From positions 49,273,297 to 49,337,296 of the forward strand of contig CM049321.1 of assembly GCA_026874595.1 (NCBI GenBank): a DNA stretch of 64,000 bases. The letters run 5' to 3'. The first letter of the stretch is position 1. Each line of letters starts with the position of its first letter. Below are positions 3,059-61,410 of the stretch, piece after piece. The DNA is from Sipunculus nudus (taxonomy: Eukaryota > Annelida > Sipuncula > Golfingiida > Sipunculidae). The translations under genes and the position numbers were made by a program. The notes under the pieces were generated by a model that did not search any database, was not told the origin of the DNA, and saw only the letters and a list, made by a program, of their open reading frames with translations.

Positions 3059-4970
3059 TTGCCATTCTCATTCTCCCTTCCTTTGCCTACTTTGTTTGCC
3101 TGTCTCCCATTCTCCCTTCCACTGCCGACTTTGTTTGTCTGTCTCGCATTCTCAATTCAAATGCCTACTTTGTTTGCCTGTCTCCCATTCTCGATTCAAA
3201 TGTCTATTTTGTTTGCCTGTCTCCAATTCACCCTTTCAGTGCCTACTTTGTTTGCCTGTCTCGGATTCTCCCTTTCAGAGCCACCTTTGTTTGCCTGTCT
3301 CGCATTCTCCCTTCCAATGCCTACTTTGTTTGCATGTCTCCCATTCCCCCTTCCAGTGCCTTCTTTCTATATCTGTCTCCCAGTCTCCCTTCCAGTGCCT
3401 TCTTTCTATATCTGTCTCCCAGTCTCCCTTCCAGTGCCTACTTTGTTTGCCTGTCTTGGATTCTCCCTTCCAGTGCCTACTTTGTTTGCCTGTCTCGCAT
3501 TCTACCTTCAAGTGCCTACTTAATCTACCAGTCTCCCATTGTCCCGCTCAATGTCTACTGTGTCTGCCGGTCTCCCATTCTCCCACTCAATGTTCACTTT
3601 ATCTGCCAGTCACCCGTTCCCTCGCTCAATATCTATTTAATCTGCTGGTCTCCCGTTCTCTCGCTCAATGTCTACTTTGTCTGCCAGTCCCCCATACCCC
3701 CGCTCAACGTTTGCTTTATCTGCCGGTCTCCTAATCTGCCACTCAATTTCTATGTTGTCTGCCGGCCTTCCATTTTCCCACCAGAAGTGTACTTTATCTG
3801 CACGTCAACCTTTCCCCCGCTCAATGTTTACTTTGTCTGCCGGTCACTCAATCTCCTGCTCAATGTCTACTTTGTCTGCGGGTCTCCCATTCTCCCGCTC
3901 AATGTCTAATTTATCTACCGGTTCCCATTCCCCCGCTCAATGTTTACTTTGTCTGCAGGTCTCCCATTCTACCGCTCAATGTCTATGTTGTCTGCTGGTC
4001 ACCCTTCCCCCGCTCAATGTTTATTTTGTCTGTCGGTCACTCAATCTCCTGCTCAATGTCTACTTTGTCTGCCGGTCTCCCATTCCCCGCCCAATGTTTA
4101 CTTTGTCTGCCGGTCGCCCATTTTCCCGCTCAATGTTAACTTTCTGTACCGGTCTCCCATTCTCCCGCTCAATGTCTACTTTGTCTGCCGGTCTCCCATT
4201 CCCCCGGTCAATGTTTACTTTGTCTGCCGGTCGCCAATTCTCCCGCTCAACGTTTACTTTATTTGCCGGTCACCCATTCCCCCGCTTAATGTTTACTTTA
4301 TCTGCCAGCCCCCCATTCTGCCCCTCAATATCTTATTTGTCTGCCCGTCTCCCATTCCCCCGCTCAATGTTAACTTTGTCTGCCGGCCCCCATCCCCCCA
4401 CTCAATGTTTACTTTGTCTGCCGGTCCCCATTCCCTTTCTTAATGTTACCTTGTCTGCCGTTCTCTCAATCTCCCACTCAATGTTTACTTTATCTACCGG
4501 TCTCCCATTCCTCCGCTCAATGTTTACTTTATCTGCCGGCTCCCATTCCTCGCTCAATGTTTTTAATTTGTCTACCGGTCCCCATTCCTATGCTCAATGT
4601 TTACTTTATCTGCCGGTCTCCCAGTCCCCCGCTCAATGTCTTCTTTATCTGCCAGCCCCCCATTCTGCCTCTCAATATCTATGTTGTTTGCCCGTCTCCC
4701 ATCCCCCGCTCAATGTCTACTTTGTCTGCCTGTCCATATTCCCCCGCTCAATGTTTACTTTGTCTGCCGGTCACCATTTCCCTTGCTCAATGTTACCTTG
4801 TCTGCCGGTCTCCCATTCTCCTGCTCAATGTTTACGTTATCTGCCCGTCTCCTATTCTCCCTCTCAGTGCCTATATTTTCTGTCAGTCTCCCTTTATCCA
4901 TCTCAGTGCCTACTTTGCCTCACATTCCCCTGCCCACTGTCTTCATTGTCTGCCTGTCTCCCTTTCGATT
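3059..4970 (+). repeat. 39-bp minisatellite, about 49 units
   Basis: The unit reads roughly CTCCCATTCTCCCGCTCAAT followed by GTCTACTTTGTCTGCCGGT, about 39 bases. Some units are 37-40 bases long. Few units contain stop codons in any + frame, so long low-complexity reading frames of 13-residue repeats (CLLCLPVSHSPAQ type) appear in all three frames. That is expected from the unit and is not evidence of a gene. A (TA)n(GA)n block and a 15-base G run sit just upstream. Confidence 0.9.
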
Positions 4971-34593: not shown

Positions 34594-35824
34594 GACGATT
34601 TTGACGCCTTAAAAGCCCGTTTTGACCGCTTAGAAGCTCTAATTACTGAAAAATATAAACCTGATCCGTCGGACCCTACCGGACCAGACGAAAGACCAGG
34701 TTTGCACCAAGTAAGTGCAAGTAACCCGCTACCGATACCGAACACACCAAAGGCTTTCGTCGCGACCGGTCCAACACCGGAACCACGGAGAAACCGGAAA
34801 TGGAGGATTTTCGCTTGGAGAGTGTGTGGAGATCGAAATGCGCCCGGCGTGGGTGGCCGGTGGAGGCATGTTCGTTAATGCATCTGGCTTGGGCTCCGTC
34901 CACGCTACGCCAATATAACATGTTTATCAAGAGATTGTACGATTTTTGCTCATCAAATAGTTTTTCGTTTCCTCCCGAGGAGTGCGCTTTAATTTTTTTA
35001 TCTCTCTAAGCAAAACTACATGTCGGCCACAGTCCACATTGAAATGTTCCATGGCTGCTATAGGACACTTGTATAGTGGTCTTGATCTTCCTAATCCTTG
35101 CATGTCGAACTCTGTGAGAATGTTTTATGATGCTCTGGTTAAAGGTTTTACCAAACAGCCGATGATGTATTCTAAAGTCATGCCTGTTAACCCCTTTAAG
35201 GTTTTGTTTGAGAGTTGGGAAGATAATGATATTTTGGACATTCAAAGGTTAAGAGTTAAGACTATTGTCTTATTAGCGTTAAGTGTCATGCTCCGACCGT
35301 CGGACATTGCTCCCAAAGGTGTTTCTTGGAATGCGGAAACACAGTGTTCAGAACGGTTACAGTTTCTCATTTCACATGTCCTGGAAGTAGATTCCGCTTT
35401 ACAGTTGACATTTATGGGTATTAAAAATGACCGTCAGCGCACAGGATTTAAAGTTTTAGTTCAACCCCATTCTATGGCTAAGTTGTGCCCTGTCAAAGCC
35501 TTTAAATGTTATATTTCTAGAACGCAGTGTTTTAGATCTGTTGGTAATCAAGCGGTATTTTTATCTTTGAAAGCTCCACATCAGGCTATTGGAGCAGACA
35601 CTGTAGCAAGAGATATGGAATAGGCCATCAGTCAGGCCGGCCTAACTGGCTTTACGGCTAAGGATTTCAGACCCACCGGTGCTACAGTTGCCGTTGAGAG
35701 TAGCAACAATCCCGAAATTGTACGTAAGATAGGGAGATGGAAAAGTTCCGAGATATTTTTTCAGCATTATGTCCATGCAAGACTTCCACGTCAGTTCACT
35801 GAGGATATATTGGACCATGAATGA
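34594..35824 (+). pseudogene. Tyrosine recombinase (DIRS/Ngaro/Crypton type), broken
   Basis: Three reading frames carry consecutive parts of one protein. An acidic, coiled-coil-like start (VTKDDFDALKARFDRLEALI) lies in one frame. A core-binding region (STLRQYNMFIKRLYDFC) follows in the frame open from 34800 to 35009. The catalytic domain lies in the frame from 34982. The catalytic part has LLALSVMLRPSDIA (first Arg), a GIKNDRQ strand (Lys), DFRPTGAT (second Arg) and GRWKSSEIFFQHYVHA (W and nucleophile Tyr). It is interrupted by TAG at 35621-35623 and ends at TGA 35822-35824. The frame changes near 34670-34800 and near 35000, next to a T7 run, plus the stop, indicate a dead copy. DNA rearrangement was its original role. 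Confidence 0.82.
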
Positions 35825-46748: not shown

Positions 46749-46904
46749 ATGGCTGGGGCCGACAGTTGGCGAGAAGAGGCCTGGAAGATGCTCCTCCTCA
46801 AACACAGAGTTCAACTCCTACAATCCATGAAGTTCCATAAAACACTGCTTTGGGATTTCTTGGTGCAGAGCAGAGTTGTAACAAAGGAGCAGTACTTATC
46901 GCAA
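46749..46904 (+). CDS. Exon 1: N-terminal half of CARD
   Basis: This exon encodes residues 1-52 and ends in phase 0 at the donor GTAGGT (46905). The helix-rich text HRVQLLQS..LLWDFLVQ..VVTKEQYLSQ fits helices 1-3 of a CARD. An in-frame ATG also exists at 46692. The ATG at 46749 is preferred because an acceptor-like TTTGTAG lies 8 bases before it, and because residues encoded further upstream (NYLSVFVDY) do not look like a CARD start. A TATAAAT lies at about 46673, but it is not clear that it is used. Confidence 0.82.
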
Positions 46905-48969
46905 GTAGGTCTTCCGCTCTGATGTTTAAAAATTCCGTTGAACGGTAAAACCAATGAACTTTACCCCAAAAATTAAAATAAATAAAACATAGCAATGCCC
47001 AAGATAAAAGAATCTTAACATATGTCTTTTTTGGATGTCATAGATGTTATCAATACTAATATCGTCAACCACATTTTTTTTCTAAGTTTGTCAAATAAAG
47101 ATTTTATGATATTATCAATTTATATATTCAATACACGTAACACTGACACCATTTACTTGGCAGAAGGGTCAGTCCGATCTAGAAATGGGCAGGTATGTCT
47201 TGGACCTTATTGCATTTAAGCCGCAGTATGAAGGGTTCTTGCAGGCTTTACAGGATTCAGATCAAGGTCATTTCGCCGACTTGTTAAAAGGTATACAAAT
47301 ATGTGTGATAAGGTTAAATGAGGTAACATATCTGCAGGATATATACATACCGGAATACCTGAAATAACAGCATACAAAAAGAGCTATTCTTTACAAGAAA
47401 ATGATTGTCCGACTTAATTAAAGTTAAAGTCCAATTAAAGTACAGTCATGAGTTGAGTGTCCATCTTAAGCATCCAGCAACAACAATCAACCTGATAATA
47501 TGCTAATGACACTCTTGAAACCTTTTTTTCTCTGTATCATGTTTCTTTCTAATTTAAATTTAAATTTTAATTTTTTAAAGAAACATGATAGATGATAAAC
47601 TAGAGAAGGTTTTGTGACACTGTCATTTATTTTGACGTTAGTCATAGAAAAAGTGGTTTCCTGTTACTGGTTGCGTAAACCATCTACCATTTAAAAATTG
47701 TTTGAATTTAAAATGCATTTAATGTAAATTTCATGAATATATATACCATCAGAAAGAACACTACATCAGTGCTAAAATGACATATACGTCAATGATCTAA
47801 TGTTAATTTCAAATGATTTTTGGAGCTGATTGTATTCAAGGGGATAATGACAGGGATGCTACTCTGAGTTTTTTTTTTACTTATCGAAGAGACAGAAGAC
47901 GTCCTGGCCACGAAGATGGGATCTGTCAACATAAAGGAAGTGACTGTGTATCTGGTCGCTCCTTGGTGTGATAAGATGATTCTTCAGAAGGAGGGGATCA
48001 AATATGAGGAAACATGGTTGGTGGACGACAAACACAAATCATCCATTAAAACAGAAGAACTGCAGAAAATGCTACGATTTCTGGTTCATCTCCTCAGAAA
48101 GATGATGTCATTCATAGAATCTAAGAACAGCCCTGGCAGTGTCCTTAAGTTACGTCATATAGTTGTTGGAGAAAAGGTAACCCAGGATGACCATGAGGTG
48201 TTAATAGATATTTTAACTGTTCACCCTTCGGATATTGTTTATTTCAAATGTAACATGGAGCGCCCAATCTCAAGCCACAAAGAAATTGCTGAAAAATGTA
48301 GTGAGCTTTTGGATCTGAGCGTCGTTATAACAGACTCTTGTTGTTCGGAGCTCAAGAACAAAAAGATTCAGATGGGATATCCTTGTTTTGAGTGCATAAC
48401 TGTTGGATATAAATCCACCTCTTCACAGAGTACTCCATGGGGAGGCTTGGTGGATATGGTTATACCAAAGAATGTCATGGGTACGGATAACGAGGGACGA
48501 AATTACATCATTAAATGTGGCTCATCTCCTGCTGTGTACGGAGTTGCGACAGTGATCTTGGCATTACACAGAGCGCCCTCTCTAGGTTAGTTTCCGCATT
48601 TATAAATAAAGGCTTAGTTTGAAAGGGGTTTTTAAAAGTCGCTGTACATTTTAAAAGACTATTTTATATTGGACCAGTCCAGTATCACAAATCCAAGAAG
48701 GTATAAATTGCTTTATAGGTGTAACTCCAACAGACCTTAAGGAATTGAGGAAAAGCCGCACGATGCGCAGAGTCCTCATATCAATGTGCTACAGCGCTGA
48801 CCCAGGCAAGCATGACGCTCTTGAAGGATTTGGAACCCTCCAGCCAGAACGGCTTCTGGAAGACTCACACGATCTGAAAGAAATAATTCATTCCAACATA
48901 TCCTACTGGTGAGTATTATACATGCCGCATCTGTTGCTGATTGAATGAATGAATGAACAGAAATAAAAT

Positions 48970-49022
<53 letters not shown>

Positions 49023-52000
49023 ATATTATTATATAAATATTATGATACAAAAGGCCTCCGGCCAATGGTTCCACAAAAAGCATGTGTTAAGCATCATAAA
49101 AATTCAACAATAACAAAATGATACAGCGTAACATGAACTAACATAATATGAATTAAACATGTTGAGTGAAAGCCCATATTTGCAATTTCTAAACACATGC
49201 AGAAATGTTGTAATCACATATTTCATTTTGAGGTCATAAATAATAACAAATATAATATAAAAGAAATAAAAAAATACAATTTATCAATGAATGTTTAATG
49301 AATAATGAAGTAAATAAATCGGTTAATTAGCTGATAGTTTTCGATTCATCATTTCTCCTGAAAAAGGCATAGCACGCGTAGGTTGCTAATGTTTTATTGT
49401 ATGAGGATTATTATCTGGCCTGAGGGATAAAAATATAAATAAATCATAAATAAACTTAATCCTCAAGTCTGTATACAAAGGGACTATCAGGATTAAATGA
49501 TGTTCATCTTCCACAACAGCATCCCAATATCTTAGGCAATATTTACGAAACCTTTCATCCCTTAGTTTATTGCCGTTCAATCAGCGTTTAGTTTAATCTC
49601 TGTTTCAATGCTGATATAAATAATTTAACATTTCCTATATCTGTTTCAATCCAAACACTGCCAAATCCGTGAGAAACGAATACTTTATTTATGATAGTTG
49701 CCCAGTTCTGTTTTCCTCGTACATCTAGGCGATATATTATATAACACATTTTTTGGTAATCTATTACGTGTCTTTTTTTAGCAATTTAGTCCAATAAGCT
49801 ATTGCTCTTATTATATAGTGAATCTACAAGGCCAATCGCCCACATTCTCAAAGCTTTTTATTCGCTTGACCATCCGTGACTACGATAAAAATATTGTTGA
49901 TTATTTGTGCTCACTACATTGAAAATTAATAAATTATCTAATTTTTTACACTTCTACTGATTTAATCCTCTGGGTTCTCAAAGCTGACCTCATATTTGTT
50001 TTCCTATACAGGCGAAACAGGCATATGCCCCGGGAAGGCCAACACAGCAAGGTAGATATATACTTTATGTAATTCTACTGTATAGTAGCCTTTTCGTATT
50101 ATGGGGTACTATATCGCATCCATGCAAGAACACGAGGTTATACTGTATATCTGTCTTTATTGGTATATATATATCATCTTGTTTTATGGTTGTTGTCTTT
50201 ATTGTTATTTATTATTGTATCCGGCAATGGGAGTTTAGCGGATAATGTTTTCACGTTAGACCGCCGCCTTCTCTTCCGGAGAAACCTTAGATCAATCTTT
50301 CCGAAACCCGGCATAATTATTAGGCTGGGTCACATGTTAACTGGTCCCAAACAAAGAGTAGTGGCGCCACCTGCAATCTTTTTCATGCAGTATGAGTATG
50401 GGTGTTTTGTTTTGTAATAACAGTCCATATCTCAGGCATGTTTCAACTTATTTGGCTGAAAGTGTGCACGTCTTTAGATCCCGGACGCCTTCATCTCATA
50501 CATGAGACTCGTGGTGCCGCCTACAATCATTTTTCTTGGCTTCAATCTATGCCTTTACCATCCGTTTTGCTTTAATGTATTTGGCTGAAACTGTGCATGT
50601 CAATATATTTAGGATACCTCAATCTCGTAATCAAGACTGGTCGCGCAATCTGCAATCGATTTTGCATGGCGTTCATCCGTGCGTTTGCTCATATCTCAGG
50701 GTTGGTTCAATGTATTTGTTTAAATTTGGCATGTCCATCCGTTTTGGAGAGTTTTCTTGTCGAGGAGATAGGTGTCGACACCAAAATTTCAGTTATTCGT
50801 AAAATACATTGATGCCCTATCTCTGGAGTGTTTTGCCCTTAAATTGTGCATTTCCATAGATCTTAGCTTCCTCCATCTCGTATTCAAGACTGGTGGCTCG
50901 ATCTGTAATTGAATTTGCCTGGGATCAAGCCAACCGTTCACCATCAGTCTTTGATGTCAAAAATTTGGAGTCATGTCATTTCAGGAACATTAAATGCTTT
51001 TCTTTTCCCGTGCCTCTGTGATACTGCGGATACTTGTGGTCGCTTGTCGACTGCCCGTTTTCTAATTACTATTATTATTATTATTATAATTATTATTATT
51101 AATATAAATTTAATAATTATATAGCACGTATTATACCACATATTCGATTGGTACGGATTAGCGTTTTTTTAGGCCATAAACCTTTGACAGATCACGAAAG
51201 GGATGTAATACGTAACAGCTGGGTTATTTACTCAACTTACTGGTGGCGCTGTATATAATCCTTTCAATTCTATGTATTCTTTTGCCATGTGTGAAAATTG
51301 CTCATATCTTAGGAGTGGTTCAATATGTAAGTCTGAAATTTCGCATGTCAATCTATCCTGGATTGTATTTTTTCATATACCAGACTGGTTGCGCCACCTA
51401 CCGTTTTTCCTAGAATACTTTGATGCCCTTTCTCAGGAGTGTTTTTATCATTTCTTCAAAATATTTAGCATAATCATCAGTACCAAAACGTGATGTTACG
51501 TAACTTTAAATATTTGTGTTTCAGTTTTTATATCAGGAATACTACCCCCACGCCCATCCCCACCCCCGCTAGTGGTAACTTCAATATATACACTGTAAGC
51601 ACCTGGTGCGGTCCAGCTGTAGGCGGTCCGCTCCAGTTAAAGTGCATTTTTTTCTAAATAATTGTAATTACATATATTTGCTCAATATTTTATTTTACCG
51701 TATATCACATGCACTGCAAATTATGCTATAATATAATATCACTAGCTGATAAACCTGGTAACCGGACTTTTACAATTATTTTGTAGCGCTGTGTTTGTGG
51801 CAAGAAATTCTTACATCGCTATGTTTACCTTGAACACCGAGTCTGTGATGATGTTTACATTTGCAGACCGGAATGGGACGGGGGGATTCAGATTTTCGAA
51901 GATCTTTGACTGGTTACATGTATTATTGTAGTTTGAGGTGTTTAGGTTAGATTGATGTAAGGACGATGGTTTAAACGTATGTTTTAAGGTATGGAAGCTG

Positions 52001-54535
52001 TTCCCAAAAAAGAAATTCAAATATGCACAAGCACAAGTACTAGCACAAGTGGATCCAAGTGGGGTCTGGACCACCCCCCCCCCCCCCCCTCAGCCGCCGC
52101 AAACTTTTTTTAATTGTTTCAAAACCTAATGAAAGGTCCCCATGTCCGGAGAAAAAGAGTTGTTTCGTGCAGGTCGTAAAAATGGTTGCGGTGCCTGACA
52201 AAAAAAGGGGGGCCATACCCCCTAGACAACCCCCCCCCCACCCAACCCCCCGGGTCCGATCCTTCCTTAATTGCATGCTGACATAAGAAATGCTTAAGTG
52301 CCAAGGGATCCAGAGTCACCTGTCGTTCACATTTGTCAAACAGGCTTAAATCCGTCACTGACAGCAGGGTTTATCAATGTGCACAAAAGATCTTAATCCT
52401 GTGTGGTGAATAAAAAGTGACGACGCAGGTATTCGGGTCTTTCCCGAAGGCAGTTCTGCTGTTTTCGGTGGTAACCTCCATACAATTCAATAAACAACCA
52501 AATATCACTCAAAATGATGAGCACATTAAAAATAATTTATTCTCATATCGGTGAGGTCATTGTTCGAAAAATAACTTTTAAAATTAGGTTTAACAAGTGT
52601 CATACACAAAGCGGTTTCAGGGAACATTGAGGACAAAAGTGGATCAAATTATCTTCATAAGTATTAATATTCGTTACGTGAATCACAAAACCTGGGTTTG
52701 GTTTTTGAATGAAAAATTTAAAACCTTTGTAAATAATAATTAAAATATAATTTTATTAAAAAAAAAAATAGGAACATTTTGTCTTATTGTGAGGGGCAGG
52801 GTAGTTTATCAACCAAATTGTTGGGAAACAACAGAGCAGGGTGCAATGATTTTAATGCTCAACATGTCACTTCCAGGGACGGATCCAGTATTTGTTTAGA
52901 ATAAGAAGGGTTCCAACCCAGTAGGACTAATGACGAAACCTAAAAAAAGTCCCCAGGTCCGTCAAAGAGGGAGTCGAGGCCACAGACATTAGTCCAAAAG
53001 CCTTACGAAAGGTTGCCACGGATAAAAAATGGGGGGGGGGGGGGGGGGGGCGTCCGGACCCATTTGACACCCCTCTGGATCCGCTTCTTACTTCAATCAT
53101 AATTTAATAACAAAAATAACCTTTTTATAGTGTTACTCAAAGAACAAAAAACTATTATAATATACGTTCAATTATACTATATTACAGCTGCCATTGCTTT
53201 AAAAACATTGTACCTAGTTAATGAGTCTTTCTTTGCGAGGATATAATGACACCTTGTTCATAGCAAGATTTCCAGGTTGAAACTGAATCCATTAAGTCAT
53301 CTCTTTACCATAAACCTTTAAAGTTTAGGTAGAAGAGCCAGGATCTGTCAAACCGGTCCAGTATTTTGTGTTTTTGCGATTCGGTCCGGTCCAGCCCAAA
53401 AATTGTGAACCGGACAGGTACAAGCGTTCCGGTCCGCACATCTAATAGTTCACGTGATATTTAAGGGACGTGACACGGCCGGCAATATCCTTGAAAAATT
53501 TATTTCGTAGAGCTACTCACGGAAAATCATATGTACATCCGACGCCCCCTGCCCCAAGAAAACGCATTTAAATTGTTTTATTTTTTTTTTATACTGGAAG
53601 GTACATTTGATTTTCTTCAGCATTGAGAACTGCGTTATTCGGAATAACACATTTGCTAGGGATGCATTATTTACAAATACATGACGGATGTGCAGAAAAA
53701 CACAAAGTCGAGTCTAATAATAAAGTATTGAGTAAAGTCTAATGACAGTGAAACCTGTGAATACACCACCTGTCACGTGTCTACTCGAAACAAACCTCTT
53801 CCTGGTGGGCAATGTGGTACCGTCGGGACTACTGGTCCCAACTGTCAGACATATAAATCAGAATTTGTTACATTTCAAGGAAACAACGTATGCGTTTGCT
53901 TTCACAATATTACTTACTCCGTGAAGTCACACAAAACATCTATGTTTATGTAATCTGTTTTGATATAGTTCAAATCTAACACATTTTAAAGGACTGGACT
54001 ACATGATCCTCTTCATAACATTTTAACTAGGCCGCTGGTGTATGTAGAAGCCGCATTGGATTGTAAGAGTCAGATTGTGAGACCCATAAACCCTAAACAG
54101 CAGTCCCTCACTTGCCGTGAACTTGATTAACGGACAAAATGGTCTTAAATGCACATGTGGTCTTATTAGAGAGTCAATTATAACCAGTGTGGATTCGTTC
54201 GATTAACTAAATAAAGGGGGGTCTTAATATACAGGTGGTCTTATTAGAAAGGTGGTCTGTCATACAGATACAACTGCATAAATATGGGAAGTGAAACAAA
54301 AGTTGAGATAGAAGAGATTGTATTGTGCCGCCATCTGTCAGTTATGTTAAAAACTAAAGTGAAGATGTACATTCCGTTTCAATTCTAATTCATGTTAATT
54401 CTGGCATTTAAGAATGAACGTGATGGGTAGACACTTTGACACCTACAGACTTTTTTTGTTATTATCATTATGGTTATTATTAGAACCCTTTCTTCCTAAT
54501 TTGTTATATAATACTATCATTCCATTTTATATTTA

Positions 54536-54585
<50 letters not shown>

Positions 54586-56570
54586 TAATAACTTGATATT
54601 TCTTCGCAGGTGCCCCTGTCAGTATCCCCAGACGATTAATCCCCCCCCCCCATCTTCAGCAGATTATACTGACACTTGGCAAGCGACTATGGGTTCTTCC
54701 ATCTATCGACTCGAGAAACCATATATTTGGGAGGGGGGGGGGGGCAATACGGTGAATCACTCTTGAGAAAAGAGCATTAATTTATTTTATGAAAACGGGA
54801 AGGAAGATGGATGGACATGCCACATTTAAGACCAATACCTTGAACCACTCTGGAGATATGACCAATTTTCACCTAAAGCACATGTACATTTGGACGCCAC
54901 AGCAAACGATTTCAGATGGCGCAACCAGTCTTTAGTACAAGATGAAGTAGTCCAAGATCTATGGATATGCACATTTTCAGGCCAATAGGGCAAATCACTC
55001 TTCAGAAAATGGCTTTCATTTATTCTACAAAAAACGGAAGGTAGGTGGCGCCACATGTCTGGTTTACGAGAAAACTTTCAAAGATGGATGGACATGCCAC
55101 ATTTCAGACAAATACTTTGAACCACTCCGGAAATATGAGCCATTTTTACCGAAAGCAAACATACGAATGGATGTCACACAATTACTATTGCAGATAGCGC
55201 CACCAGCCTTGATTACAAGATGGAGGAGTCCAAGATGAATGAACATGCACAATTTCAGCCCAATCTGTCCATTAGTTTTAGATTTATAATGCTCACAGTA
55301 CTGTCAAGTGGAAATGATGGGGTATTAAAAGGAGCGAAAACAAGAAAAGAGAGTAGGTTGCGCCACCTGTCTTCCACAGAATACAAAACTATCCAAGATC
55401 TTGGGTCAATTTGATTTTTTGGACCAATCCATGCATCCCTTTTTGAGATATTTATGATTTTGTGTGATTTTCACCATATATGGCAATATCCAAGGTCAAG
55501 ACCACTCTCATAGGAAAGGTCATGACCCCAATTCAAATATACATTCATCCAATAACCCATGTCTATGCATATGCATAATATGAAAGCCATCTGTCCTTTA
55601 GTTTTTGACTTATAATGCTCTCAGTACTGTTAAGTAGCATTGACGGGGGTATTAAACGGCACGAAAACAAGAACAGGATAACAGGTGGCACCACCAGTTT
55701 CCGGTATACCCAAAATCTTCGGTCAAGTTGATTTTCGGATCATTTCATGCAAAATTTCTTGAGATATTTAAGAATTTGTGTGATTTTCCTCCAAAATGGA
55801 ATTATTCAAGGTCAAGGTCACTCCCCTAACGAAGGGCATGGCACAATTTTAAATAGGCTTCGTCCTCTCGCCTATATCTATGCACCTGTAAAGTTTGGAA
55901 AAGATCCGTAAAATATTGAGTTTTCGCGTCCAAACGAAATCTCTGCGGCGGCGGCGGCGGCGCGACAGTACTTAAACCATCCCGACTTTGTCTGGGGATA
56001 CAATAATAATAATAATAATGGAAGAAGAAGAAGAAGAAGAACAATAATATTTGGATAATTTGAAGCGATATATACATCGTTTGTACGCCTCAGCTTCTGT
56101 ATGACGCGACAGAAAAAAAGTTGCCGAACCAGTTACGGGTCCAGAGGGGGCCACCCGAGGCGCCCTTCCCGCCCCTTGTTGAGCTCTAATATCTGTCATT
56201 TTATCTATTATTCCCCCAGTCATTCGTAATTAATTTTCATTTTGCAAATTATAAACGCAGATGTACACTTTCACAATGCAGATATTAACATGTTAAAAAC
56301 GATTGCAAGTTTAACTTTATAGTTAATATCCCAATACTGAGGATATAAAAAAAAATATTACAGCCGGCCACACACGAACCCTTACCTTCTGAACATTGAC
56401 TACCTTATGCAAAGACCTTTTTTTTTACCTTTAAGTTGTGGAACAGAAAATCCTCGTATATTTTATTTTTGTGAAAGGTGCCTCAAAATGTCCTCTTTAC
56501 ATTGCATATTTTAAACTGTTCTCAATGGCTTTAGATTTTATTGATATAGGTGATATATATATATATAAGT

Positions 56571-56607
<37 letters not shown>

Positions 56608-59600
56608 CAAGAAACAAATATTTATATTTTTCGTAGGCTGAAAATATATTATGTATAGTAATAATCAATATATATATATATATATATTTATAAAATAATT
56701 AATATATATATATATATTTTACACCTATATATAAACACATATAAATAATTTTGCATATGTACAAAAACCACCATCCCAGTATATAAGAGCTTATCTTTTA
56801 TCGAATTTATGGAATCTCCACTGCTAATAGCTAACAGCCAGATAATTTAATCACATGACAAGCATCAGTTTGAGGTCTGTTTTATATTGTTTTTTTACTT
56901 TAAATATATTTCAATTTCTGATTCATCAGTAAAGGAATATACAGATTAGGCCAATTTTTTAAAGGTTTATTTCTCAGGCATTTTATTCAGAAATCGTAAG
57001 GGAGGGCGAATTTTATCTTTTTTATACGTTTTCGATAACATATTCTTTTAATCAGTGATAATAGCCAAATTGTTTTGCTTAGTCAGAGGAAAATCTTATC
57101 GAAAATACATCGTTTATTTTCTTGGAAGAAATGTCGGAACCCTTGAAGTAAAAATCGGTAAAATTCTGTTGAAAATGAATTTTTTAACTTGGGGCCGTGC
57201 CTGAAAAGCCTTCTCTTTTGCCTAAATACGTTTGTATCAGTAAACTTACAGCAGACTGGTATATGTGACAAGAGATATCACGTGATCACGCATGAAATCG
57301 ACACTTGTGGCAATGACCTTAAAATTGTGAATTTCACTCCGCATCCAACGGGAAATATACACTTAGCCTGACTACTTCAACCCTCCCACACCAAACATAC
57401 AAATCTCAAGACTTGAGAATCCCGGTACTTGCGTTTATATCTAGAAAGTAAAGAGTTCCTCTAATAATAGGATAAGACAAAAATAAAATTAAAATCTTGG
57501 GAGAATATTCAACGAGTATTTATATTTTAAATATAAAAAATATACTTAAAATATTTCAATTTCAAATAAAAAGACATATTCACATTCTGATACATTATAA
57601 AACATTGATAAAATTTTCCAGTGGGTTATTTTTTATTTACTCATGTTACTTTAATAATGGTATATTTTAAATTTAACTAGTTGTGTATTTATTTTATCTT
57701 GGAGTTCCTTCTTTACAGGTAGACTACACGCCTACGTACACAGAGACCAACAAGACAACGCTGGTCAGACAGCTGACGTCACACCAGGTTGACCCCGCCC
57801 AAAAGGTGGTGGTCGGGATCCTGGGGAGCGGGTTAAACCCCAATCACCCGCTACTGGCCGGACGCTGGCTGGACCTGTCCAGTGTCAGCGTGTGTGAAGA
57901 CGAACAGGACCAGACAAAAGACTGGGAGGACCAGACCACGTCCTTCACCGCCTGTCTGGTGAACTTGCTGTACACAGCTGATGGTGACTCCCTGGTGAAC
58001 CGTGTACGGCTCATCCATATCAAGGACACCACGTCGAATGGTATAGGCACTGATGGTGACTACAGTAAAGCCCTGGAGCAGTTTCTTCACCAGGGTGTTC
58101 ACGTGGTTTTACATCATCACGGTTGTCTACACCCGGTCGCCACATGGAGCGGTGTGAAGCTGATCCAGCGCCTGAGAGACACGGCTGTATTTATAACGCC
58201 CGACTTGTTTGTGGAGACTCAGCCACATCACACCTTCCCTCAGACAGAGGTCCTGGCGATGAGCGGTGTGACGTCAGACGGCCGTCTGTCACGTGACGCC
58301 GCCGCGGGGCCTCGTGTAGATTTCGTTGCGCCGGTCCAACATCAGACCACCGGTCACGGGCGCCCCCTCCCGAGCATCTACACCAGGAACGCCACAAGCT
58401 TCACAGGCGCCGTGACGATTTATATACTGGTGCTGGCCAGGATACACGGTACGGTATTATCTACAGCGCTGACACACTATCACAATGATAACATTTAACA
58501 TAATATACCTGGTTTGAAAATATATTCATGAGTGGATATGGATATTTAAAAATCATTTTGTGAAAATCAAACACAGAAAAATTTAAATTATATTGATAAA
58601 ATTATATCGATAAGAAGGATATATGTTTATATAAAATGGAATGCCTGTATGTGCGCCATATAAAAAGCTGAGATCTCCGATATAACATTGCAAATCCACG
58701 CTGTAGTGTCTCACTCTTGCCGACAAAGTGAAAAGATACATGCCGAAAAATAGATACAGTTTTCATTCAATGCGATAAGAATATCACCAGAAAATAAATT
58801 CAAATAAAAAATATCTATACCTCTCGTGATTATGACAATGTTGTTTGTTTCAGACAAATATCAAACCTTCAGTACACCCCCCCCCCCCCCCCCCCGTTTC
58901 CATTTGTGTGATCAGAAGCGTTGGACCAGCAGACTGCAGCACTAACCTCCCCTCGCGTTCATTCAAACACGTTTTATTAGGGCCCCGCTTGACAAGCGGT
59001 GCCCTATAGTGATCACCGTGTCAATCCGTCCTTCCGTACTTCCGTACTCCGGTCCTTCCGTCAGTGACACTTTCTCTCGCGCGCGATAAATCAACAACAA
59101 CATATTTCAGCTTTCCCAAATTCACAGGGATGATTGATACCTCTGAGGGCCCTATCCCTGTCAAATAACACACCTTCTAAAAATCAGATCATAATCTGAG
59201 ATTTTGTATTTCATACATTATTTCAGACATATCTTCTTTAAAATTATTTGAACATGTTTGTCTTTATCATATTTCGAAACTATTAACTACACTTTTTACC
59301 CATATGTAAACTAGCCAACCATTACTGGAAATGTGGGGCCCTTTAAGGACCATTGTCAGACCACACATAGTTTGTGTTGTATTTTTCCTCCGCCGGGGGG
59401 GGGGGTTTGCGTTCATTCCCGTTCGTGTGTTTGCTCGTTTGTTCACAAAATAACTCATTCAATCAAGAACGGAATCTTATAAAAATGTCTGCAGTGGGCA
59501 TTTGGGAATGGGCCAATGAAGAATTGGATATCGGGGTGCACCCGCCTCATGATCCGGGTTCAGGAATTCCTGTGAATGCATATATATAAAGTCATATCAT

Positions 59601-60114
59601 ACTCTCACTATAACGACCGCTCATTTAAACATGTCAGAGTATATCAATATGCCATCTATCTAAATGTATTCCATCAGTTCTGTCAAAGTCATGCGACATT
59701 TAATGAATTTTATACAAGGTAAGATGCCAACAAATAATGGAATCTTATATATTTGACACTTTGTTTAACCCTCCAATGTTTAGTTACATCCTCTGGTAAA
59801 ATGTAATTACACGAATATCCACAGAAAAATTATAAGATTAAGTGATGATTATTGATTGAGTCATGCAGATTGAATATGAGATTTCTTTTACAGGTGTTGA
59901 CGAGTCCCGTATCCGCCGCTTGTCAACAACAAGTGTGATGAGGGCCATCTTAATAGAGATGTGCTCTCATCCGGAGAGAAGAACGGCCAGCATGGGATAC
60001 GGCGTCCTTGACCCTTGGCCTTTCCTCAATGACTGGACGAAGCTGGGTCCCATCGTCATGAAATACACGGATCCTGACGCTGAACAAACGCTCTGGGCCG
60101 GAAAAGATATATGA
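46749..60114 (+). CDS. CARD protein with two tandem degenerate subtilisin-like (S8) domains, seven exons
   Basis: Joined exons are 46749-46904, 47164-47290, 47890-48585, 48719-48908, 50012-50051, 57719-58448 and 59894-60114. They total 2160 nt, or 719 residues plus TGA, and every intron is GT..AG with matching phases (0,1,1,2,0,1). Residues about 8-94 resemble a CARD: LLWDFLVQ in the first half, then YVLDLI and FLQALQDSDQGHFADLL in the second. Residues about 112-375 and 433-695 each read like an S8 domain from the first beta strand to the closing GFG or GYG turn. The Asp site is Ala118 or Gly439 (VYLVAPW, VGILGSG), while a Ser remains in the GTS-like motif (GSS at 305-307, ATS at 628-630). 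No signal peptide or membrane segment is seen, so a cytosolic protein is expected. CARDs bind other CARDs, which suggests a scaffold or sensor role in innate immunity or cell death. That role is inference. The start follows a TTTGTAG acceptor-like site, so an upstream untranslated exon is likely. Confidence 0.85.
46905..47163 (+). other. Intron 1 of the CARD-S8 gene
   Basis: A phase-0 GT..AG intron that splits the CARD in two. It is AT-rich with no other feature seen. Confidence 0.75.
47164..47290 (+). CDS. Exon 2: C-terminal half of CARD
   Basis: The acceptor is CTTGGCAG and the donor is AAAAG|GTATAC. It enters in phase 0, leaves in phase 1 and encodes residues 53-94. GRYVLDLIAF..GFLQALQDSDQGHFADLL closely follows the common CARD ending (LLdlL..F..aL.esgQ.hLadlL), which is the strongest evidence for the domain. 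A downstream ATG at 47185 exists but is internal. Confidence 0.87.
47291..47889 (+). other. Intron 2, with a short hairpin
   Basis: A phase-1 intron with a T-rich tract before the acceptor. Inside it, ATCATGTTTCTTT (47536-47548) and its exact reverse complement (47577-47589) could fold into a 13-bp stem around an AT-rich 28-base loop. Confidence 0.7.
47890..48585 (+). CDS. Exon 3: first pseudo-subtilase domain, main part
   Basis: This exon encodes residues 95-327 and is phase 1 at both ends, with donor TCTAG|GTTAGT. Its order of elements follows an S8 fold. VTVYLVAPW (113-120 region) matches the strand that normally ends in the catalytic DTG, but has Ala-Pro-Trp. VLKLRHIVVGEKV matches the strand after the His helix, SDIVYFKC the substrate-side strand, and SVVITDSC the strand before the oxyanion Asn. 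GYPCFECITVG, GGLVDMVIP and CGSSPAVYGVATVILAL match the ending VIAVGA..VDIVAPG..GTSMAAPHVAG. The acceptor could instead be the AG six bases further on (exon start 47896); both keep the frame. Confidence 0.85.
48719..48908 (+). CDS. Exon 4: end of first pseudo-subtilase domain
   Basis: The acceptor is CTTTATAG and the donor is CTACTG|GTGAGT. It enters in phase 1, leaves in phase 2 and encodes residues 327-390. It starts GVTPTDLKEL, carries MRRVLISMC and closes with GFGTLQPERLLED, the usual GYG..A..A turn near the end of subtilase domains. Exon 7 encodes the same elements with the same spacing. Confidence 0.85.
48909..50011 (+). other. Intron 4, with a (TA)n array
   Basis: A phase-2 intron. A (TA)n array lies at 48974-49013 and runs into AT-rich imperfect repeats. 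No other exon was seen. Confidence 0.7.
50012..50051 (+). CDS. Exon 5: 40-base linker exon
   Basis: A very short exon lies between TTTTCCTATACAG and AAG|GTAGAT. It completes Trp390 from exon 4 and adds 13 residues (RNRHMPREGQHSK), leaving in phase 0 as exon 6 requires. The polar, basic sequence looks like an inter-domain linker. It is called from splice sites and phase only, so it is the least certain exon. Confidence 0.65.
50240..51530 (+). repeat. Array of diverged repeats
   Basis: Several diverged units share CTCATATCTCAGG, GGTTCAATGTATTTG and AGACTGGT.GCGCCACCT-type segments. The units are reverse-complement relatives of 54780-55800. Confidence 0.55.
52876..53087. mobile_element. Small inverted-repeat element with GGATCCAG ends
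   Basis: GGGACGGATCCAG at 52876-52888 is answered by CTGGATCCGCTTC at 53075-53087. A 20-base G run (53031-53050) lies inside. It is non-coding and sits in intron 5. Confidence 0.5.
54780..55800 (-). repeat. Inverted array of the 50-kb repeat
   Basis: GATGGATGGACATGCCACATTT, GAACCACTC.GGA.ATATGA and GGCGCCACA recur every 150-250 bases. They are the reverse complement of the 50.24-51.53 kb family. Confidence 0.55.
57719..58448 (+). CDS. Exon 6: second pseudo-subtilase domain, main part
   Basis: The acceptor is CTTTACAG and the donor is CACG|GTACGG. It enters in phase 0, leaves in phase 1 and encodes residues 404-646. KVVVGILGSGLNPNHPLLAG is clearly the subtilase first motif (VaViDtGi..nHPdL) with Gly in place of Asp. 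RVRLIHIKD, VHVVLHHHG, EVLAMSGVTSDG, PRVDFVAPV and NATSFTGAVTIYILVLA follow in S8 order. The HGTHVAG helix position reads TTSFTACLV, with no His. The exon is markedly more GC-rich than the DNA around it, as expected of coding sequence under constraint. Confidence 0.87.
58449..59893 (+). other. Intron 6
   Basis: A phase-1 intron at the same domain position as intron 3. It contains a poly-C run (about 58876-58895), a dispersed repeat (58980-59190) and a poly-G run (about 59396-59405). Confidence 0.75.
58980..59190 (+). repeat. Dispersed repeat with CGCGCGATAA core, copy in intron 6
   Basis: It starts GGGCCCCGCTTGACAAGCGG and continues TCCGTC..GTGACACTTTCTCTCGCGCGCGA, matching 8310-8380. Confidence 0.65.
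59894..60114 (+). CDS. Exon 7: end of second pseudo-subtilase domain and stop
   Basis: The acceptor is TTTTACAG, the entry phase is 1, and the exon encodes residues 647-719 and TGA. It begins GVDESRIRRL, has MRAILIEMC and GYGVLDPWPFLND, and ends ..LWAGKDI. The first two motifs fall at the same distances from the intron as in exon 4. Confidence 0.85.
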
Positions 60115-60599: not shown

Positions 60600-61410
60600 T
60601 CTCTCGTTATTTTTCTCTGTTCATTATCTACCTGTCTCTAATTCAATGCCTACTTTGTCTACAAATCTCTGATTATCCCGCTCAACGATTTTTTTTTTCT
60701 GTCTGCTATATCCCCTTCTCTCTCTTAGCGCAAACTTTGTCTGCCGGTCTCCCATTCTCCCTCGCAGTGCCTACTTTAACTGCCGGTCTCCCATTCTCCC
60801 ACTCAACGTCTACTTTGTTGGCCGGTCTACCATTATCCCACCCAATGTCTACCTTGTCTGCCAGTCTCCCATTCTCCTGCCGAATGTGTACTTTGTCTGC
60901 CGGTCTCCCATTCTCCCGCTCAACGTCTACTTTGTTTGCCTTCCTTTAATTCTTGCTCCCAGTGCCTTCTTTGTCTGCCTGCCTCTCCCATTCCCCCCTC
61001 AGTGCCTACTTTTTCCTCCCTTTCTCCCTCTCAGTGCCTTCTTTGTCAGGCGGTCTCCCATTCTCCCCCTCAGTGCTTACTTTTTTTCTCCCATTCTTCT
61101 GCACAATGTCCATTTGTCTGCGGTCTCCCATTCTCCCGCTCAATGTTTACTTTATATGCCGGTGTCCCTTTCTTCCGCCCAAGGTCTTCTTTGCCAGCCG
61201 ATCTACCTTTCTCCTGCCAAATGTCTGCTTTACCTGCCCGTCTCCCATTTCCCCGCTCAATGTTTACTTTGTCTGCCCGTCCCCTATTCTCCCCCTCAGT
61301 GCCTAATTTTTCTGCCTGTCTCCCTTTTATCAATCTCAGTGCCTATTTTTCCCACTCACTGTCTAGTTTGTCTGCCTGTCTCTCATTTTCCCTCTTGATT
61401 GCCTATTATG
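60600..61410 (+). repeat. 39-bp minisatellite, right copy, about 21 units
   Basis: The same unit as at 3059-4970 (for example GTCTGCCGGTCTCCCATTCT) at the equivalent place in the right duplicate, with less than half the number of units and more irregular spacing. Confidence 0.88.

Follow-up and report, generated by a model that had tools for sequence, protein, structure and literature searches.

CARDs are familiar from adaptors and receptors such as ASC, BCL10, CARD9, NOD1/2 and the RIG-I class, and in Toll-like signaling, TIR domains join TLRs to MyD88. Bacterial CARD defense systems are said to have been described by Wein in 2025. LypABC is a bacterial CARD–NLR-like defense system (PMC13236601), and neither subtilisin nor subtilase occurs in its main text. 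The gene considered here lies in a window of 64,000 nucleotides of the Sipunculus nudus genome (contig CM049321.1), by which we mean the whole stretch of DNA that was analyzed, and it appears to encode a CARD followed by two tandem pseudo-subtilisin domains, D1 and D2. No CARD protein with such a tandem was found in the literature searched. Like the CARD adaptors and receptors, the predicted protein joins a CARD to a putative sensing or scaffolding part and has no transmembrane (TM) helix, but it differs from them in its tandem pseudo-subtilisin domains. With the bacterial CARD defense systems it shares the coupling of a CARD to other modules, whereas those are bacterial operons and CARD-D1-D2 is a fused animal gene. 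D2 is homologous by profile to peptidase S8 (PF00082), but it is without the catalytic Asp, the His and the oxyanion Asn and is fused to a CARD. The subtilisin family also includes CspC. In Clostridioides difficile, CspC is described as a pseudoprotease with a proposed role in the detection of germination signals by the spores (PMC6636752). The likeness is that of a dead protease with proposed signal detection; however, CspC is a bacterial spore protein without a CARD.

We read the product as a cytosolic CARD signaling protein in which two dead C-terminal subtilisin-fold domains have been reused as a binding module, either a sensor or a docking site, and would put the probability of this at about one in two. 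It could plausibly act in immunity as a death-fold adaptor, the immune function being what we infer. If this is right, innate immunity in animals would gain a new recognition scaffold: a protease fold that has lost its catalysis, has a binding cleft that varies, and is connected both to the death-fold machinery and to lectin receptors. The sequence-only reading had proposed that seven exons splice into an uninterrupted frame, and this was borne out: 719 residues are open up to a TGA, and every junction is GT-AG (Table 1). D1 and D2 have a phase-1 intron in common at the matching place (between exons 3 and 4, and between exons 6 and 7). The best 19-residue hydropathy is 1.48, which gives no TM helix, against 2.86 and 3.13 in lectin-type paralogues on C16 and C13, respectively. 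Pfam found no NACHT, helicase, PYD, kinase or caspase domain in the CARD-D1-D2 protein.

Table 1. Features of the CARD-D1-D2 gene, in positions of the window.
Feature	Position	Strand	Description
Exon 1	46749..46904	+	Start codon and first half of CARD, aa 1-52 (Pfam CARD over aa 15-92)
Exon 2	47164..47290	+	Second half of CARD, aa 53-94; contains FLQALQDSDQGHFADLL
Exon 3	47890..48585	+	Bulk of subtilisin-like domain 1 (D1); recognizable catalytic residues absent
Exon 4	48719..48908	+	C-terminal portion of D1; a homologue of exon 7, preceding intron in the same phase (1)
Exon 5	50012..50051	+	40-base micro-exon, linker RNRHMPREGQHSK, phase 2 to 0
Exon 6	57719..58448	+	Bulk of subtilisin-like domain 2 (D2)
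Exon 7	59894..60114	+	C-terminal part of D2, conserved tail WAGKDI, stop TGA
Asp32 position	57824..57826	+	Gly; two alignments agree
His64 place	57932..57943	+	Gln 57932-57934 (PDB alignment) or Ser 57941-57943 (S8-exon alignment); no His either way
Oxyanion Asn155 place	58208..58213	+	Val 58211-58213 (PDB alignment) or Phe 58208-58210 (S8-exon alignment)
Ser221 position	58397..58399	+	Ser kept (NATSF); assigned visually by its TSF motif, as the HMM alignment does not reach it
Variable segment	58031..58057	+	About subtilisin 97-105
Variable segment	58112..58126	+	About subtilisin 124-126
Variable segment	58199..58222	+	About subtilisin 151-158
Variable segment directly before the kept Ser	58373..58387	+	About subtilisin 213-217; placed by hand

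That the protein consists of a CARD and two tandem S8-like domains, as had been claimed from the sequence, is supported by Pfam and profile searches taken together. The Pfam check proposed at that time held in part: the isolated 94 residues of the N-terminus match CARD (PF00619) at E = 1.1e-4 and 22.6 bits, below the gathering score of 23.9, while S8 gave a weak match to D2 and none to D1. The CARD match spans aa 15–92, or profile positions 3–82 of 85, and falls to E = 0.0061 and 17 bits when the whole protein is searched. Among six CARDs of the gene family, five match Pfam CARD at E ≤ 1 (best E = 1e-6). Against the PDB, the single CARD sequence found nothing useful, and a CARD profile had only two matches at E ≤ 10, ICEBERG (E = 0.41) and NOL3 (nucleolar protein 3; E = 1.3), both of which we take to be CARD proteins. 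From these comparisons, the N-terminus is a weak CARD that is probably genuine. The S8 assignment is weak on Pfam alone (E = 0.014 for D2 by itself and 0.054 for the whole protein, below the gathering score), so a family profile was needed. A single D2 sequence found nothing useful in the PDB; a six-row D2 profile found subtilisins with a best E of 1.4e-4, and all but one of its 57 matches at E ≤ 10 carry the names of subtilisins or related serine proteases, mesentericopeptidase and subtilisin E being at the top. The alignment extends from the strand of the Asp region to the AAG..D..AP strand. D2 matches a catalytic-looking S8 exon at E = 1e-8 and D1 matches D2 at E = 9.7e-8 (hhalign); D1 compared directly with the catalytic-looking S8 exon gives a weak match (probability 12%, E = 0.0024). 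The homology of D2 to subtilisins, and of D1 to D2, is supported at the level of profiles. An AlphaFold2 model of D2, made from the two exons in the window with D1 as the sole second row, had a pLDDT of 27.9 and was uninformative on the fold, and the D2 profile run against viral contigs produced 114 pattern matches, none of them a relative.

Both subtilisin-like domains look catalytically dead, and D1 is more decayed than D2. Across copies of the gene, the PDB alignment places D, Q, R or Y at the His64 place and K, L or V at the Asn155 place. D2 does not have the Asp-His-Ser triad with the oxyanion Asn and is therefore not classed as a peptidase. It could be supposed that D2 is an unusual active protease working with its kept Ser and another base, since Ser is retained (as TSF, ASF or ASY) in seven of the eight D2 copies read through the motif, the C13 copy having Trp. 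However, the Asp position holds Gly, neither alignment gives a His at His64 and the oxyanion Asn is gone; with the triad lost we rejected this explanation, which we regard as very improbable. The genome also has S8 exons; in the catalytic-looking exon at C13 28.83 Mb, the one that was read completely, the motifs IDSG, GHGT and GTSFS are intact.

Judged by its exons, the CARD-D1-D2 gene is a member of a family. Neither this, nor the loss of the catalytic residues, nor the relatives with lectins had been pointed out in the sequence-only reading. Exons 1 to 4 recur as diverged copies, with their order kept, at five further places on C16, exons 6 and 7 recur at four further places, and C11 has pieces of the exon set at 41–66% identity. 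Since the set recurs in order, it is more than a chance assembly. The 14-residue micro-exon, exon 5, has AG/GT ends and equal length in the five other C16 copies, where it scores 36–65 and the runner-up no more than 5, its first residue being partly fixed by the search itself. One could suspect that exons of no common origin had been strung together by eye, or that the gene is a pseudogene in decay, from the 7.7-kb intron that separates exon 5 from exon 6, from two 5′ halves at 49.37/49.38 Mb that have one 3′ half in common, with a TGA in its exon 6, and from four of the six copies in which, by simple coordinate transfer, at least one boundary is non-GT-AG or unresolved. Against this, diverged copies keep the order D1 then D2 on the same strand, the phases are consistent and the micro-exon is conserved; on these grounds we rejected the chaining of exons as an artifact. 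In addition, exons 2, 3 and 7 show a dN lower than dS in all pairs that allowed both to be calculated and had a nonzero dS. In exon 7, the protein has hardly changed (dN 0–0.01, dS 0.11–0.19), which indicates a gene under constraint, and we give an artifact or a pseudogene hardly any weight. Near the family loci, there were no Death-domain matches among the 31 matches listed.

Distant paralogues at C16 27.5 Mb and on C13 carry the D1-D2 module behind a C-type lectin and a TM helix, with no CARD. At C16 27.5 Mb, Lectin_C matches at E = 7.1e-6, above the cut-off, and 778 residues plus a stop are open through seven exons, the first exon or exons being outside the reading. On C13, Lectin_C matches at E = 9.8e-11, and 466 codons are open through the lectin, the TM helix and D1, the join to D2 being putative; no exon like exon 5 was found in the C13 gene. 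From the dead D1-D2 and these lectin relatives with the same domains, a broken protease apparently became a recognition or signaling part, and we read the two dead subtilisin domains as a module for recognition or docking that is coupled to a CARD in the cytosol and to a lectin at the membrane. The cleft of D2 would bind a variable partner, which could be a microbial or self peptide or protein, or the D1-D2 of a lectin receptor. Binding may cluster or expose the CARD, which might then set off an immune or cell-death response by recruiting a caspase, kinase or adaptor that itself has a CARD. A different arrangement would be a pair like TLR and MyD88, in which a lectin-TM-D1-D2 receptor recruits CARD-D1-D2 through homotypic D1-D2 contact, making the module a docking interface and not a ligand sensor. 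The likeness to the TLR–MyD88 pair lies in an intracellular module that occurs both in a receptor at the membrane and in an adaptor with a death fold, the interaction here being putative; unlike there, the module is subtilisin-like and not TIR, and the ectodomain is a C-type lectin and not LRR. The tandem module behind lectin and TM at C16 27.5 Mb and the second lectin/TM set on C13 fit such a pair, but in D1/D2 the identity between the receptor form and the CARD form is only about 19–30%. Moreover, homotypic docking predicts a conserved interface, yet the D2 of the CARD form is most variable at cleft positions, and we consider this pairing rather unlikely.

The variability was counted as distinct residues per site, as differences from the window copy overweight the window’s own branch; both measures point the same way. 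In five D2 copies only, one of them with a TGA, sites with at least three residues made up 11 of the 34 contact positions, which we take to be the substrate-contact positions of subtilisin, against 11 of 166 elsewhere (OR 6.7, p = 1.4e-4). The contact, loop and secondary-structure lists used here and below come from background knowledge of subtilisin and were applied after the variable segments had been seen. Of the 243 exon-6 positions, 43 had no mapping and were left out, among them 2 of the 24 sites with the highest variability. In a rotation test, 3 of 200 arrangements, the observed one included, were as extreme. The enrichment was similar with the HMM alignment alone (9/26 contact versus 9/149 elsewhere, p = 1.8e-4), with the anchors of the other alignment (11/34 versus 10/162, p = 9.5e-5), with the His region and C-terminus left out (8/23 versus 9/145, p = 4e-4) and against non-cleft loops (11/34 versus 4/65, p = 0.001). 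A cut-off of at least two residues gave OR 3.0, p = 0.0035 and 9/200 rotations; at least four gave 4/34 versus 1/166, p = 0.0031 and 5/200 rotations. A wider set of “cleft loops” gave 16/53 versus 6/147 (OR 10.2).

These sites bear on what the cleft may do. As an integrated decoy, the dead D2 would mimic a host or microbial subtilisin and bait a pathogen’s protease inhibitor or a proteolysis target, with contact triggering the CARD. The S8 exons elsewhere in the genome, among them the one with all three motifs at C13 28.83 Mb, favor this idea, and cleft diversity would fit an arms race with inhibitors. However, a decoy should preserve the shape of the cleft, yet residues at cleft positions vary most, and we hold a decoy to be improbable. 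Returning to a binding module, we suggest tentatively, and with less confidence than for the CARD protein itself, that the locus may belong to an undescribed animal recognition system with the tandem pseudo-subtilisin both in TM C-type-lectin receptors and in cytosolic CARD proteins, the cleft of the CARD form having diverged from one tandem copy to the next in the manner of a surface that binds antigens or effectors. For the contact set, dN (0.250) exceeds dS (0.143), with a bootstrap interval of the difference from −0.04 to 0.24; as this includes zero, positive selection is unproven and relaxed constraint could also account for it. In the “cleft loops” set the two are equal (dN 0.210, dS 0.213). 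For exon 6 as a whole dN is close to dS, as it is for exon 1 in some pairs, and low synonymous divergence in exons 6 and 7 suggests exchange between copies.

The reading that fits the window gene best is that of a CARD protein whose two dead subtilisin-like domains (D1 and D2) would bind a partner in the former substrate cleft, with the CARD serving as the output of that binding. The window lies at C16:49273297-49337296 (C, chromosome) of a 1.43-Gb genome. A sequence-only reading had claimed an open seven-exon frame of 719 residues, and this was borne out: all junctions are GT-AG, the phases match, and 719 codons are followed by TGA. When open frames of at least 20 residues across the 64-kb window were scanned with profiles, no second copy was found. 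In the genome itself, 5' halves (exons 1-4) lie at five additional C16 locations and 3' halves (exons 6-7) at four, with order and strand kept. Micro-exon 5 recurs in all five other C16 copies with AG/GT ends and identical length. Its score is 64-65 in four of them and 36 in the fifth, and the next candidate reaches at most 5; the first codon's initial two bases were set by the search itself. Because the halves recur in the same order and strand, and the micro-exon recurs as well, we consider the predicted gene to be more than chained open frames. When boundaries were simply transferred, all sites were canonical in two of six copies (the window and 49.23 Mb), and the other four had at least one boundary that was non-GT-AG or not settled by such transfer. 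The 49.39-Mb exon 6 carries an in-frame TGA; there, two 5' halves, 8.6 kb apart and identical at all compared exon sites, share the single downstream exon 6-7 pair. Some of the more distant C11 pieces have frame breaks. Also in the window are two arrays of a 39-base repeat, about 56 kb apart and open in several frames, the second directly downstream of the gene, and an open frame of 220 aa that looks, on inspection, similar to the tyrosine recombinase of a mobile element.

Features of the window gene, its relatives and other elements (C, chromosome)
Place	Feature	Remark
Window gene, exons 1-2	CARD-like domain	
Window gene, exons 3-4	D1, first subtilisin-like domain	
Window gene, exon 5	Micro-exon	40 bases
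Window gene, exons 6-7	D2, second subtilisin-like domain	
Window 3087-4917	39-base repeat	47 copies
Window 60734-61324	39-base repeat	15.5 copies
Window 34961-35623 (+)	Open frame	220 aa
C16:49366000-49395999	Two 5' halves, one exon 6-7 pair	
C11 68.05 Mb	Exons 1-4	More distant relative
C11 68.02 Mb	Exons 2-4	More distant relative
C11 67.93 Mb	Exons 3-4	More distant relative
C11 67.92 and 68.04 Mb	Exons 6-7 (exon 6 fragmented)	More distant relatives
C11 ~67.93 Mb	Exon 7 alone	More distant relative
C13 28.8-29.0 and 34.1 Mb; C15 53.0 Mb; C17 37.0-37.6 Mb	S8 exons	~650-730 bp
C13:28834804-28835640	S8 exon	IDSG, GHGT, GTSFS
C16:18615938-18637168; C5:167862-184826	CARD frames	230 and 275 aa
C8:27344668-27361493; C9:69082832-69099934; C11:50496797-50513707	CARD frames	285-354 aa

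We regard the N-terminal domain as a CARD, with good if incomplete confidence. As proposed from the sequence, the isolated domain matches Pfam CARD over nearly the full profile (E 1.1e-4; 0.0061 within the whole protein), and five of six family members match it (best E 1e-6), but the score falls slightly below the gathering cut-off. Against the PDB, the family CARD profile returned two sequences at E≤10, ICEBERG (0.41) and NOL3 (1.3), both of which are CARD proteins.

The claim of two S8-like domains is likewise supported. For D2, Pfam alone finds the Asp-motif region only (E 0.014). A six-row D2 profile, which includes both lectin-form copies described below, matched 57 PDB sequences at E≤10 (best E 1.4e-4), of which 56 are named subtilisin or a related serine protease and one is a salivary protein. 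The D1-D2 alignment has E 9.7e-8, and introns 3|4 and 6|7 share phase 1 and fall at equivalent points of the two domains, as expected after an internal duplication. By two alignments, the Asp32 position of D2 is Gly, the His64 position is Gln (PDB) or Ser (S8 exon), and the Asn155 position is Val (PDB) or Phe (S8 exon); Ser221, placed by eye, is kept. Because these three residues are replaced in D2 and no catalytic residue is recognisable in D1, both are predicted to be pseudo-enzymes. Structure prediction from few alignment rows was uninformative. The genome also has a catalytic-looking S8 family, since the one exon read, on C13, has the motifs listed in the table; it has 21 genome matches, itself counted. 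The D2 profile matches this exon at E 1e-8, while D1 matches it directly only weakly (12%, E 0.0024). The presence of this family opens a reading in which dead D2 would act as a decoy. The frames of the C13, C15 and C17 S8 exons are 278-311 aa, and the profile match ends near 254-269 of 288.

The same D1-D2 pair was found by exon-profile search at C16 27.52 Mb and C13 22.89 Mb, where family exon 1-2 profiles gave only chance-level matches to an upstream CARD (about 6 kb and 19 kb searched). The C16 gene reads lectin, TM helix, D1, D2; the seven exons seen are consistent in phase and encode 778 residues before a stop (its first exon or exons lie beyond the piece read), and its Lectin_C match is over the cut-off (E 7.1e-6). 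At the C13 locus, a TM helix accompanies two lectin domains, whose matches (E 8.2e-7 and 9.8e-11) were obtained on fragments concatenated regardless of splice sites. Once splice sites are applied, 466 codons are open, covering the second lectin, TM and D1 up to exon 4, the first lectin being a putative part of the same transcript; D2, 1 kb downstream, is out of phase with D1, and the extra exon required was looked for and not found. The TM-D1 joint is phase 2 in both lectin genes, and the CARD-D1 joint is phase 1. Hydropathy sets the two kinds apart, with a best 19-mer of 2.86 and 3.13 for the lectin genes and 1.48 for the window gene, so that one module is common to a membrane lectin form and a TM-less CARD form. 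TIR is a module of both TLR and MyD88, and by analogy the shared D1-D2 module opens a reading in which it would work as an adaptor between lectin and CARD proteins.

Between every pair of C16 copies, dS of exons 6 and 7 is 0.11-0.19, while that of exons 1-4 ranges from 0 (the twin 49.37/49.38 halves; 0-0.13 for window vs 49.23 Mb) to saturation; in diverged pairs the 3' half is therefore far closer than the 5' half. For the copies at 48.94 and 48.98 Mb, few of the intron stretches flanking exons 6-7 align, and most of those that do fit less closely than the exons. Together, these patterns suggest that D2 exons were exchanged between copies by conversion or recently reshuffled. The exon 7 protein is nearly unchanged (dN 0-0.01); exon 6 has dN 0.09-0.11, near its own dS.

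Changes in exon 6 are unevenly spread, as its mapping on subtilisin E supports (200 of 243 positions by PDB alignment, the last 25 by hand). Among five copies, sites with at least three residues make up 11/34 substrate-contact positions vs 11/166 elsewhere (OR 6.7, p 1.4e-4; 3/200 rotations as extreme, the observed one counted), with 2 of 24 such sites left out as unmapped. The presumed contact, loop and secondary-structure positions were applied after the variable segments were known. Alternative mappings agree at this cut-off (p 9.5e-5 to 4e-4), as does comparison with non-cleft loops (11/34 vs 4/65, p 0.001). In the PDB alignment, the His64 place is D, Q, R or Y among copies and the Asn155 place K, L or V; in the S8-exon alignment the variable residues are offset from these places by one to three positions. 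For contact sites, dN is 0.250 and dS 0.143, and for the remaining sites 0.077 and 0.129. Positive selection at contact sites is not proven, because the bootstrap interval of dN-dS (-0.04 to 0.24) includes zero. Binding in the cleft, an adaptor role and a decoy role would not exclude one another.

In the open-access literature, as far as its available portions go, we found no account of a CARD or a lectin receptor joined to a subtilisin-like domain; the family may be present in subscription papers or, as uncharacterised proteins, in auto-annotated databases. In the portions available, a comparison of Death-like and TRADD-N domains (PMC8195603) and a hard clam genome study of IAPs (PMC7831173) mention neither subtilisin nor subtilase, the flat oyster genome paper (PMC9679248) mentions a proprotein convertase only, and a lucinid clam transcriptome (PMC6836662) lists CARD or Death genes and, separately, visceral-mass subtilisin peptidases. 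Bacterial operons have a nuclease flanked by S8 and trypsin peptidases, and the trypsin can bear an effector-associated domain (PMC7159879, in part). The nearest functional precedent found is CspC of C. difficile, a pseudoprotease described, in the portion available, as a presumed signal detector (PMC6636752).

CARD frames also occur in other elements. Among the matches listed, at least about 50 near-identical frames of 230 aa and a similar number of 275 aa lie on many chromosomes, mostly as opposite-strand neighbours with about 3.4 kb between them. In the examples tabulated, C-type-lectin frames of about 360-382 aa lie roughly 13-18 kb away, and the arrangement resembles that of a mobile or proviral element, active until recently, with CARD and lectin genes. 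The CARD frames of 285-354 aa on C8, C9 and C11 are partial domain matches, and DNA_pol_B_2 matches (about 30 bits) about 16-17 kb from them suggest a second, rarer type of element with a CARD gene.
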